Assembly (NCBI GenBank): GCA_009380025.1
Contig: WHSP01000030.1
Coordinates: 1-36,355, forward strand
Reading direction: 5' to 3'
DNA: 36,355 nucleotides
Origin: Gemmatimonas sp.
GTDB lineage: Bacteria > Gemmatimonadota > Gemmatimonadetes > Longimicrobiales > Longimicrobiaceae
The notes under the pieces are model-generated. The model made no database searches. It was not told the DNA's origin and was given only the letters and a program-made list of their open reading frames with translations. A program made the position numbers and the translations under genes. Of this stretch, positions 18,194 through 25,692 are shown piece after piece (positions within the stretch are counted from its first letter, which is position 1; each line of letters begins with the position of its first letter).

Positions 18194-18382
18194 CTAGCAA
18201 GTTGGCATCCGGCAATTCGGATATCAACGGCGTAGTTTCCAAGTCGGAAACGAGGGATTTTTCGCAAGGTCAAGGAGCACAAGGGTTGGCGCGGAGGCGT
18301 ACTGAAGTACGCCGCACAAGCAAACCTGCGGCGCGACGCCGAGATTCGGAAAAGAACCGTTTCCGGATGGAAACTACCATAG
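18194..18382 (+). repeat. Dispersed structured repeat, copy A (partly degraded)
   Basis: About 189 bases, roughly 90% identical by eye to copy B at 25502-25692. It begins CTAGCAAGTT and ends AACTACCATAG, near-inverted termini. The central GGCGTACT-GA-AGTACGCC hairpin, the CGGCG-CGA-CGCCG hairpin and the terminal GTTTCC...GGAAAC hairpin are preserved. The first arm (GCACAA/TTGGCGC) and the outer stem (TTTTTCGCAA facing TTCGGAAAA) have lost pairing relative to copy B. Its right terminus overlaps the cox fusion gene: the last codons CTA TGG and stop TAG (18374-18382) come from the repeat. The rest of the 17951-18373 spacer shows nothing else convincing. Confidence 0.85.
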
Positions 18383-20983
18383 TCGGGGCGTCGCGTAGAC
18401 CGTGGCGGCGATGAGCAGCCAGCTTGCGACCGCGAAATAACCAATCAGCTCGCCGTTCAAGGTAATCCCGTGGCCCCGAGGGTCGTCGGGTCTTCGGAGT
18501 GACCAAAGGAACGAGAGCACGAGGATGATCAGCAGCAACCCCAGGACGAGCCACTGGAAAGCGAGCAGGGCGGCGAAGATCGAGCCGTAGGCGCTCTCCA
18601 CTGCGCGAAGGCCGGTCTCGTTCCACGCCTGGATGGTGAAGTAGAGGAAGAAGGAGGTCAGCGGAAGGGCCAGGCCGATGGCGATCCGGCGAAGGCCGGC
18701 CCGGGAGCGACGCGTCGCGTGCCCCGTGGCGTAGATGACGAGCCCCAGCACAAGGCTGGCAATCGTCGCGAATAGCGCAGACTGGAGCTCGGGAACGATC
18801 GGGGTTCCCGCGCTGGGTCCCTTGCCGAGATAGAAGTAGCTTGCGATGAGAGTTAACAGCGCAACGGCGAGCACGATGATGAAGATGATGGTCCCCCACC
18901 ATCCGTTCGACATCGGCCCGGCCATGGCGAGGGGGAGCTTGTCGTCGGCGGAGTCGGTTCCGATCTCTTCGATCGCCACGTCCTCGTCCGGCCGGGGCCG
19001 GAACCAGGCATAGGCGGCTCCGGTGGTCACGGCTCCGCCCGCCCCGAGGAACCACAGGTTGTCGACCAGGACGCCCGTGAACATCAGAATGAAGCCCAGC
19101 GACATGGTGAATGGAGCCATCGTTGGGTGTGGCATCTTCACGATGGCGAGCGGCTTGGCGTCGATGACCGACACGACGAGCGCGCCACGCCAGCGGGTCG
19201 GCTTCGAGCGTAGCGGCTCGAGCAGCCGCGCCTCCTCCCGGGTCTGCGGGCCGAAGGAATCCTGCTCCCAGAGCGGATATCTGCTGCGGATAAAGGGGAT
19301 GAACTTGAACTGGGCGTCTGGCGTCGGTGAATCCTCCCACCAATCGAGCGTGTCGGCGTCCCACGGATTGGGCCCGGCGCACTCACCCGCCTTCATGCTC
19401 CAGATCAGGTTGACGACGATCATGACCGCCCCGACGCCGAATCCGAGCGCGCCAACGGTGGACATCAGGTTCAAGGCGTCCCATCCGAGACCGGCCTGAT
19501 AGGTGAAGACCCGCCTCGGCATTCCCAGCAGCCCCGAGATGTGCATGGGGAAGAACGCCACGTTGAAGAAGATGAACATCACCCAGAAGTTCCACCGTCC
19601 GAGGCGCTCGGACATCATCCGGCCCGTGATCTTCGGCATCCAGAAGTAGAGAGCCGCGTAGAAGGGGAAAACGACTCCGCCGATCAGGACGTAGTGGAGG
19701 TGCGCTACGACGAAGTAGGAGTCGTGCGCCTGGAAATCGAAGGGGACCGCGCCGAGCATTACCCCCGTGACCCCTCCGATGACGAATATCGCAAGGAAAC
19801 CGATGATGAAGAGAAGCGGCGTCTTCACGACCGGTCGACCGGTCCATAGAGTCGAGATCCAGACGAAGAACTGCACGCCGGTGGGGATGGCGATGAACAT
19901 GCTCGCAGCGGCGAAGAAACCCATGGCCGTGGGTGAAAGGTCAGTGGCGAACATGTGATGGACCCAGAGCCCGAAGCTGATGAATCCCGTCGCTAGCATC
20001 GCGGCGACGACGAGTGTGTAGCTCGTGAGTGGGCGCCTCGCGAAGACAGGAACGATCTGGGAGACCACCCCGATCGCCGGCACGAACATGATGTAGACTT
20101 CCGGGTGACCGAAGATCCAGAAGATGTGCTGCCAGAGGAGTGGCTCGCCGCCTAACTCGGGGACGAAGAAGCTCGTGATGCCCTTTCGGTCGAACTCGAG
20201 CATCGCCGTACCGACGATCAGCGGAGTGAACGCAAAGAGGATCATGAACGCCGTAATCAACATCGACCAGGCGAAGATTGGCATCCGATGCAGCGCCATC
20301 CCGGGCGCGCGCATGCGGAGGATGGAGACGATGAGCTCCGCCGCCGCACCCATCGCCGCGATCTCGGCGACCGAAAGACCGATGTCCCAGAAGTCCATCC
20401 CGAGGCCGGGCATGAAGTTCCGGTTCGTCATCGGCACATAGGCGAACCAGCCGCCAGCGGGTGCCACACCGAAGAGGAAGCTCGAGAAGATGAAGAGCCC
20501 ACCCCAGGTGTAGGTCCAGAAGGCGAGGGCGGTGAGGCGAGGGTAGGGCAGGTCGCGGGTGCCGAGGAGAAGGGGCATGAAGTAGTTCGCGACCGCTTCG
20601 ATGAAGGGGATGACGAACAGGAACATCATCGTCGTCCCGTGCATCGTGAAGAGCTGATTGTACGTCTCGGCGTCGACGAAATCGTTACCGGGAACGACAA
20701 GCTGCCATCGCATCAGCAGCGCCAGGAAGCCCCCTACCAGGAAGAAAGAGAAGCTAACGAAGATGTAGCGGTGGGCGATCGGGATGTTGTTGATCTCCTC
20801 GACCCAGAAGCGCAGTCCCGGTAGTGTGCCCCAGCGGACGTCGAAGGCCTTTGAAGTGAGCTCGTCGACCTCGAAGTAATCCTCGACGTGTCCTTCGAGT
20901 TCTTCTGTTCGGTGCGGGAGGGGATCGCTCGTCGGGCTCGGGGATGGCGAGGCGTGGCGGTCGTGGTGCTTGCGCTCGCTCAT
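18374..20983 (-). CDS. ctaD-ctaE fusion: Cytochrome c oxidase subunits I and III, fused
   Basis: Catalytic core of an aa3-type heme-copper oxidase, 869 residues. Subunit I ligands are all present: heme a H115 (TMHGTTM) and H430, CuB H293 with cross-linked Y297 (FGHPEVY) and H342/H343 (WVHHMF), heme a3 H428 (VVAHLHY); the D-channel loop GTRDLPYPR is at 141-149, and HPEVY marks an A-type enzyme. After residue about 610 a COX III-like part follows, with PMSNGWWGTIIFII at 690 and five further helices to the end. ATG at 20983 starts 7 bases after the coxB stop; the open frame beyond it is antisense noise. The last two codons and stop derive from an inserted repeat (copy A), so the original C-terminus may have been altered. 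Confidence 0.95.
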   Translation of the reverse strand: MSERKHHDRHASPSPSPTSDPLPHRTEELEGHVEDYFEVDELTSKAFDVRWGTLPGLRFWVEEINNIPIAHRYIFVSFSFFLVGGFLALLMRWQLVVPGNDFVDAETYNQLFTMHGTTMMFLFVIPFIEAVANYFMPLLLGTRDLPYPRLTALAFWTYTWGGLFIFSSFLFGVAPAGGWFAYVPMTNRNFMPGLGMDFWDIGLSVAEIAAMGAAAELIVSILRMRAPGMALHRMPIFAWSMLITAFMILFAFTPLIVGTAMLEFDRKGITSFFVPELGGEPLLWQHIFWIFGHPEVYIMFVPAIGVVSQIVPVFARRPLTSYTLVVAAMLATGFISFGLWVHHMFATDLSPTAMGFFAAASMFIAIPTGVQFFVWISTLWTGRPVVKTPLLFIIGFLAIFVIGGVTGVMLGAVPFDFQAHDSYFVVAHLHYVLIGGVVFPFYAALYFWMPKITGRMMSERLGRWNFWVMFIFFNVAFFPMHISGLLGMPRRVFTYQAGLGWDALNLMSTVGALGFGVGAVMIVVNLIWSMKAGECAGPNPWDADTLDWWEDSPTPDAQFKFIPFIRSRYPLWEQDSFGPQTREEARLLEPLRSKPTRWRGALVVSVIDAKPLAIVKMPHPTMAPFTMSLGFILMFTGVLVDNLWFLGAGGAVTTGAAYAWFRPRPDEDVAIEEIGTDSADDKLPLAMAGPMSNGWWGTIIFIIVLAVALLTLIASYFYLGKGPSAGTPIVPELQSALFATIASLVLGLVIYATGHATRRSRAGLRRIAIGLALPLTSFFLYFTIQAWNETGLRAVESAYGSIFAALLAFQWLVLGLLLIILVLSFLWSLRRPDDPRGHGITLNGELIGYFAVASWLLIAATVYATPRLW

Positions 20984-20990
20984 TGCCCGA

Positions 20991-22157
20991 TCATTCGAGG
21001 GTTTCCAGGTACCGCAGGAGGGCCTGGAACTCGACATTGTCCAGCGGCACCGCGGGCATCTTCGCTGCGGGTTTGATCCGCTGTGGATTCGCGAGCCAGC
21101 CTCCCAGGTGACCTCGAGTGTTCGGAAGGGTTGCCGCTGCGAGGGTGCTTCGCGACGCAAGATGCGTCAGGTCAGGGCCGGTGTTGCCCACGGCGGGGGT
21201 ACCACGGATCGCGTGACACGCCCGACAGGCCGTGCCCAGGAAGACCTCCTCCCCCAGAGCAGCCAATGAATCGAGCGGTGGCGCCTGCGGGAGCGTCTGC
21301 CTTCTCGACCAGTCGAGGAACTCCTGGGCCGGCTCGACCACGACACGCATCGCCATCAAGGCGTGCGAACCGGCACAATACTCCGCACACTGCCCGCGAT
21401 AGGTGCCGGGCGCGTCCGCCTGGAGTCGGAGCTCGGTCGTCCGGCCGGGGATCATGTCGACTTTTCCGGCGAGCTGCGGCACCCAGAAGCTGTGAATGAC
21501 GTCGGTTGCCTCGAGCCTCAACGCGATCCACTCGCCTGCCGGAAGGTGGATCTCGTTCGCCGTTTCGAAGAGGACTCGACCGGTATGGTCGAGGTACCGG
21601 ACCTCCCACCACCACTGCCATCCCACCACTTCGATCGTCAGGGCTGGCTCTTCTTCTTGCGCGGCTAGAGCGCCGAGCGTTTGGAGAGTGAGCACGAAGA
21701 GACCTAGCAGGATTACTGCGGGGATGGCGACACCGCCTGCGATCACCCAGTGAACCGGACGACGATCGCCTCGTGCAGTCGGGAGGACCACTTCCAGTGG
21801 CTCGCCGTCGCTGAGCGTCGGCTCGACGGTGCTTCGGGGCGCGGATTCTTGCACTCCCGCGGAGTGTGCCCGCCTGGCCTGGGCGGCTTCGGGGCTCCGG
21901 CGCAGTGGCGGTTCGATCCCGAGAGGCCTGTGGGCGCGTGCCACTGCCCACAGAGAGAGCGCGATCACGAGGATCGAGACGACCGTACCGATCGCGAACA
22001 TCACCCACCAGAGGGTGGCGATCGATCGTGCGGTGGGTCCGGCCGGAACGAGCGTCGACTGAACGCCGTCACAGCCGAACAGGACCGTCATTGTGACGAT
22101 GGTCTGCGCGAGACGGGCGAGGCTGGTCGGACGACGGGGCTCTGCTCGTCGGGTCAT
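20991..22157 (-). CDS. ctaC: Cytochrome c oxidase subunit II with fused cytochrome c domain
   Basis: Electron-entry subunit of the oxidase, 388 residues. It has a lipoprotein-like leader (VLFGC, C29), TM helices near 45-72 and 137-162, and a CuA domain: WQWWWEVRY near 181, H222 in DVIHSFWVP, and C257/C261/H265/M268 in QCAEYCAGSHALM. The last 90 residues are a c-type cytochrome with heme site C311-RA-C314-H315 and candidate Met ligand in KPAAKMPAVP. This makes it a caa3-like subunit II. The linker between the two TMs (about 75-130) is unusually long and Pro/Arg-rich. ATG at 22157 has GGAGAG upstream; the 20 extra codons back to a GTG at 22217 are unlikely. It is first in the operon with the I+III fusion. 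Confidence 0.92.
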   Translation of the reverse strand: MTRRAEPRRPTSLARLAQTIVTMTVLFGCDGVQSTLVPAGPTARSIATLWWVMFAIGTVVSILVIALSLWAVARAHRPLGIEPPLRRSPEAAQARRAHSAGVQESAPRSTVEPTLSDGEPLEVVLPTARGDRRPVHWVIAGGVAIPAVILLGLFVLTLQTLGALAAQEEEPALTIEVVGWQWWWEVRYLDHTGRVLFETANEIHLPAGEWIALRLEATDVIHSFWVPQLAGKVDMIPGRTTELRLQADAPGTYRGQCAEYCAGSHALMAMRVVVEPAQEFLDWSRRQTLPQAPPLDSLAALGEEVFLGTACRACHAIRGTPAVGNTGPDLTHLASRSTLAAATLPNTRGHLGGWLANPQRIKPAAKMPAVPLDNVEFQALLRYLETLE

Positions 22158-22257: not shown

Positions 22258-22373
22258 GAAGGCCTCCGAGAAATCGCAGCTCTGCGTTACGCTTCTCGCC
22301 GCTCGCTGCGGCGTACGAAAGCCTCACTCGCGGCTCGTCGCGCCTTGATCTGCACGATTTCTCTTCGGCCTTC
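22258..22373. repeat. Palindromic multi-hairpin element C
   Basis: A 116-base element in the divergent promoter space between coxB and the cytochrome c gene. Arms GAAGGCC (22258-22264) and GAGAAATCG (22268-22276) pair with CGATTTCTC (22355-22363) and GGCCTTC (22367-22373), with a symmetric 3-base mismatch between. Inside are hairpins CGCAG-CT-CTGCG (22275-22286), CGCCGC-TCGCT-GCGGCG and CGCG-GCTCGT-CGCG. Read on the minus strand it shares ATCAAGG.GCG and GTACGCCGCA blocks with copies A and B, so it may be a distant member of that family. Confidence 0.65.
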
Positions 22374-25501: not shown

Positions 25502-25692
25502 CTAGGATAGTTGGCATCCGGAAAGTCGGATACCAACGGCGTGGTTTCCAGGCCGGAAACGAGAGATTTTTCGCAAGGTCAAGGAGCGCAAGGATTTGCG
25601 CGGAGGCGTACTGAAGTACGCCGCACAAGCAAACCTGCGGCGCGACGCCGAGATTGCGAAAAAGAACCGTTTCCGGACGGAAACTAGTATAG
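25502..25692 (+). repeat. Dispersed structured repeat, copy B (intact)
   Basis: A 191-base element with terminal inverted repeats CTAGGATAGTT (25502-25512) and AACTAGTATAG (25682-25692, complement CTATACTAGTT). It can fold into a multi-branched structure: TTGGCATCCG/CGGATACCAA (25511-25536, one mismatch), GTTTCC/GGAAAC (25544-25560), an outer 10-bp stem TTTTTCGCAA (25567-25576) with TTGCGAAAAA (25654-25663) enclosing three perfect hairpins GCGCAA/TTGCGC (25586-25601), GGCGTACT/AGTACGCC (25605-25622) and CGGCG/CGCCG (25638-25650), and a final GTTTCC/GGAAAC (25669-25684). It has no coding capacity for a transposase, so it would be non-autonomous (MITE-like) or a structured RNA. Confidence 0.88.

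Follow-up and report, generated by a model that had tools for sequence, protein, structure and literature searches.

The repeats A and B of the window belong, with a probability of about 0.9, to an ISNCY-type MITE family, mobilised by a trans-acting ISNCY DDE transposase into TAnnTA targets and carrying an inherited rod-like hairpin as a passenger. The window is the whole stretch analysed, 36,355 nucleotides of Gemmatimonas sp. (contig WHSP01000030.1, positions 1 to 36,355, forward strand). A sequence-only reading had described a structured repeat without a transposase gene at 25502-25692, and had proposed either a MITE mobilised in trans or a structured RNA.

Limits and parts of the element

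The described repeat was found at that position, and the limits of the element were set by comparing its copies. Copy B proper is 175 bp (25510-25684), encodes no transposase, lies between divergent genes and has on its two sides the 7-bp target duplication TAGGATA/TAGTATA, which differs at one position. The CTAKNNTAG ends, which had been read as the termini, are mostly this target duplication and lie outside the element, whose own left and right terminal inverted repeats match at 12 of 16 positions. Copy A, noted before as near-identical and about 7 kb off, is 7.3 kb distant with ~91-92% identity to B. Features of both copies are given in Table 1.

Table 1. Positions in the window of the features of copies A and B
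Feature	Position	Strand	Evidence
Left target-site duplication, copy B, TAGGATA	25503..25509	.	6/7 match to right TAGTATA; permutation test, 16 copies
Left terminal inverted repeat GTTGGCATCCGGAAAG, copy B	25510..25525	+	13/16 to G013 and G094 ISNCY repeats, 14/16 to G058, 12/16 to right end
Left-end hairpin GTTGGCATCCGGAAAGTCGGATACCAAC, copy B	25510..25537	+	Sequence; hairpin pattern matched by most copies with <=2 mismatches
Internal GTTTCC-AGGCC-GGAAAC hairpin, second palindrome of terminal-repeat type	25544..25560	+	
Rod-like structured core module, copy B	25564..25662	+	Covariance model R1 57.1 bits, E 9e-13; sequence-only model 33.1 bits
Right terminal inverted repeat (GTTTCCGTCCGGAAAC read inward), copy B	25669..25684	-	15/16 to G013 ISNCY left end and to relic end on own contig C26
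Right target-site duplication, copy B, TAGTATA	25685..25691	.	Permutation test, 16 copies
Copy A, 174 bp, same element as B, more diverged	18201..18374	+	
Rod core, copy A	18255..18352	+	R1 43.3 bits
TAG stop of cytochrome oxidase ORF 18374..21160(-), formed at the copy A/target-duplication junction	18374..18376	-	

Copy B is the copy nearest to the consensus (3/175 differences, against 9/174 for copy A), which agrees in part with the earlier description of B as perfect and A as decayed. The perfect 10-bp outer stem of B does not belong to that part: it results from a change private to B, G to A, at column 152 of the alignment, where all other full-length copies have G.

Copy number and size classes

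A whole-genome search of the draft assembly (478 contigs) returned 28 matches, of which L026 and L027 were left out as members of another repeat, giving 26 places for the family including copies A and B; the further copies that the sequence-only reading had proposed to look for are thus present. Copies with both ends range from ~50 to 176 bp and copies diverge from the consensus by 1.7-5.7%. Seven long copies with both ends measure 170-176 bp, an eighth long copy has no first hairpin, seven short copies (50-51 bp) consist only of the left hairpin and a single GTTTCC..GGAAAC palindrome, and the remainder are truncated or rearranged. Short copies are of two kinds, which differ in whether the left or the right version of the palindrome is retained. 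Both kinds would result from deletions in a long copy between its two palindromes, from the internal hairpin (25544..25560 in B) to the right end, and this is the simplest explanation of the short forms.

A search of 60 related genomes, among them the sole other genome of the genus that was covered, returned no full-length copy and one weak match to the core. Copies were likewise absent from the plasmids and phages searched, and the hairpin pattern from the viral contigs searched. One place at a contig start (L010, G000:C277:1-130) is a chimera, its left part from a second MITE family described below and its right part from the family of copies A and B; this could reflect recombination or an assembly artefact.

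Target-site duplications and ISNCY ends

Sixteen copies with both ends are flanked by direct target duplications of 6-8 bp (p = 5e-5 in a permutation that reassigns flanks between copies and so allows for target preference), whereas inverted flank matches in the same 16 copies show no excess over chance (p = 0.68). Most copies have imperfect duplications, and in a few these are 7-8 bp long, against 6 bp in the insertion sequences described next; no empty insertion site was seen. Target-site duplications had been named as a check, and the direct duplications found indicate transposition of the element as DNA, by a DDE-type transposase. The family thereby combines dispersed, multiple short copies, terminal inverted repeats and target duplications with the lack of a transposase gene, as expected of MITEs.

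A search of 99 genomes with the terminal repeat gave seven copies in one other genome of the same family (G013), where the repeats are the ends of an insertion sequence encoding a 441-aa DDE transposase. This protein contains Pfam DDE_Tnp_1 and DUF772 and scores 443 bits with NCBIfam NF033593 (ISNCY; cut-off 325). Seven left and six right ends of this insertion sequence were recovered; breaks of the assembly within it left most of them on separate contigs. Flank pairs gave five exact 6-bp duplications: TAAATA, TAGTTA, TATCTA, TAGCTC and GAGCTA. ISNCY elements of two further genomes (G094 and G010) have TAGTGA and TAGCTA duplications. The MITE matches the G013 terminal repeat at 15/16 positions on its right end and 13/16 on its left; its targets agree with the ISNCY TAnnTA pattern, with duplications of 6-8 bp against 6 bp for the insertion sequences. 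The GTTTCC..GGAAAC hairpins of the MITE are palindromic terminal repeats, which the G013 insertion sequence also has.

The genome of the window encodes an intact ISNCY transposase of its own on contig C105 (466 bits against the cut-off of 325; 58% identical to the G013 protein), in an element with TAGATA on both flanks. The terminal repeat of this element (GTGTCTGTCTCAAAAC) matches the right end of the MITE at 11/16 and the left end at 7-8/16 positions, so the actual mobiliser does not appear to be represented in this draft assembly. A relic end at a TAG stop on another contig, C26, agrees with the G013 terminal repeat at every position (16/16). Judged from sequence, the mobiliser's family thus appears clear and its exact identity does not, the best-matching ends lying in another genus; an intact element with GTTTCC[AG]TCCGGAAAC ends may have been lost from the draft assembly. 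Mobilisation of a MITE in trans, one of the two original suggestions, is probably correct: it is well supported by the terminal repeats, by the target duplications and by the matching ends and targets of a related ISNCY insertion sequence. Inspected by eye from its sequence, the intact ISNCY insertion sequence on C105 (L156, G000:C105) lies within an apparent type I restriction-modification locus.

In the proposed mechanism, an ISNCY-family DDE transposase acting in trans would recognise the 16-bp, near-palindromic GTKYCCRTCCGGAAAC-like terminal repeats. The element would move as double-stranded DNA and insert into TAnnTA-type targets, often TAGnCTA, generating 6-8 bp direct duplications, and the TAG in the target would place many insertions on stop codons, where the same codon would still close the reading frame. 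The family has two size classes, ~175 bp with the rod-hairpin module as passenger and ~50 bp without it. The rod would have been captured from structured repeats of a wider, dispersed family, and shows no sign of selective retention after insertion in this genome. A palindromic repeat family thus gains a concrete candidate parent type and mechanism, consisting of ISNCY ends, target and transposase.

Comparison with known systems

ISNCY insertion sequences (NF033593) share with the MITE the terminal repeat, the TAnnTA target and a duplication of ~6 bp, but are ~1.65 kb long; the MITE is ~50 or 175 bp, lacks a transposase, has one divergent end and in some copies 7-8 bp duplications. MITEAba12 (PMC6382973), an IS-derived MITE, is likewise gene-free, has target duplications and shares only its terminal repeats with the autonomous insertion sequence. 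The present element has the tested features of such an IS-derived MITE with ISNCY as parent family, and differs in that parent family, in its palindromic ends and in a structured module common with an unrelated MITE family. QMITE-type MITEs (PMC10969869) are similar in that their transcripts would fold stably, whereas the fold of the middle of the present element is shared and covarying across the order, outside the ISNCY-type MITE. No description of ISNCY-derived MITEs was found in a literature search.

Alternative explanations

The family resembles REP, REPIN and BIME sequences in being repeated and mostly intergenic with paired hairpins, and could be read as a REPIN/BIME or an IS200/IS605 derivative; a Y1 HUH transposase would then move the hairpin repeat in the form of single-stranded DNA. 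GTGG or GTAG bases before a hairpin are a feature of REP sequences, and they precede the GTTTCC hairpin here, with hairpins at both ends. The clear target duplications, which HUH transposition does not make, refute this derivation; in addition, a search of the genome for the Y1_Tnp domain (PF01797) found none, and ends and targets match ISNCY, leaving the reading with a very low probability. The notion of transcription terminators or 3′-end processing elements, placed after genes by selection, is drawn from the strong hairpins and from position. A gene finder based on codon usage, with 12 long ORFs of the window as its training set, predicts a converging gene whose stop codon is no more than 12 bp from a boundary of the element for eight of the 26 copies. 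The stop is TAG in every one of the eight, compared with 8/43 among other nearby stops (Fisher p = 2e-5), four copies lie in each orientation, and one copy of the parent-type G013 insertion sequence and the C26 relic also occupy TAA/TAG stops. Target choice during transposition explains the uniform TAG, and several copies, B among them, lie between divergent genes; the stop-codon habit is therefore attributed to target choice rather than to terminator function, which we regard as very unlikely.

Amplification in this genome of a gene family for a structured RNA, with the structure as its function, would account for the strong folding. The hairpins of copy B fold far better than shuffled sequence (z -7.35 as DNA, -5.74 as RNA), and the core belongs to a wider family in which 21 of 26 pairs covary. 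Against this, none of 59 pairs shows a compensatory change among the six full long MITE copies, in which the changes resemble neutral decay; short copies without the core still have target duplications; and copies lie in both orientations relative to genes. Searches with Rfam gave no family above the gathering threshold in the window, nor at the core of eight core loci. The lack of compensatory changes in the MITE copies indicates that the structure was inherited and is decaying now, and an RNA gene family is unlikely, though slightly less so than terminators. The structured RNA of the sequence-only reading accordingly fails for the whole element and survives in part for its middle, a module within a strongly covarying wider family, and the covariation check divides in the same way. 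The hairpins do not preferentially fold in cloverleaf order: the middle, when folded as RNA, forms one long rod, and in the wider rod family just 43-44% of cells pair for cloverleaf hairpins 1 and 3, which makes the rod the supported fold. For the element as a whole, an ISNCY-type MITE with the rod as passenger remains the preferred reading.

The rod core and its wider family

At its centre, the long form has a divergent version of a rod-like hairpin of ~100 nt, homologous to a second repeat of the same genome. The latter is a MITE family of ~149 bp with ends AAGGCYGTTGA, unrelated to the ISNCY-type ends, and 4-bp CTAG-like duplications (p = 0.009), present in at least 21 matching places (for example L125, L131, L134, L139, L143, L147 and L153); related genomes carry it at 72-82% identity. 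In a MAFFT alignment of 16 sequences from relatives, 14 of 26 pairs of the rod fold are compensated, and a covariance model built from this alignment scores 57 bits for B and 43 bits for A, against ~33 bits for each from sequence alone. Rod matches of ~100 nt occur in 19/117 genomes of the order, and the rod was also found in three viral contigs. Among 42 distinct rod sequences, 93.7% of cells pair, 21/26 pairs are compensated and doubly changed cells number 195 (shuffles, 52; slid controls, no more than 56); this alignment was fitted to the structure, and the 16-sequence alignment (14/26) is the less biased evidence.

Covariation does not distinguish RNA from single-stranded DNA, and the compensatory changes could also arise from repair or template switching between the arms of a palindrome, so selection on an RNA is not proven. 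We tentatively propose, at somewhat less than even odds, that the middle represents an undescribed family of ~100-nt rods with conserved purine-rich internal loops and a selected structure, distributed patchily in the order, in three viral contigs and in at least two MITE vehicles. The unusual part of the system is this covarying hairpin module without an Rfam match, common to two MITE families with unrelated ends. If the proposal is true, mobile elements serve as interchangeable vehicles for one structured module, and the question is raised whether a functional RNA or DNA structure spreads by transposons or the fold aids the transposons themselves.

A third rod core of the window (22273-22362, minus strand, 67 bits) has the surroundings of the second MITE family and lies upstream of the cytochrome c genes. 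Two rod cores in another genome (L186 and L205, G023:C109) lie within a dense cluster of tRNA genes. In other families of the order (L191-L210), outer stems, which lie outside the covariance model and whose arms were picked by eye, vary by copy and are mostly self-complementary, with a conserved TC-AAAT / ATTT-CA junction.
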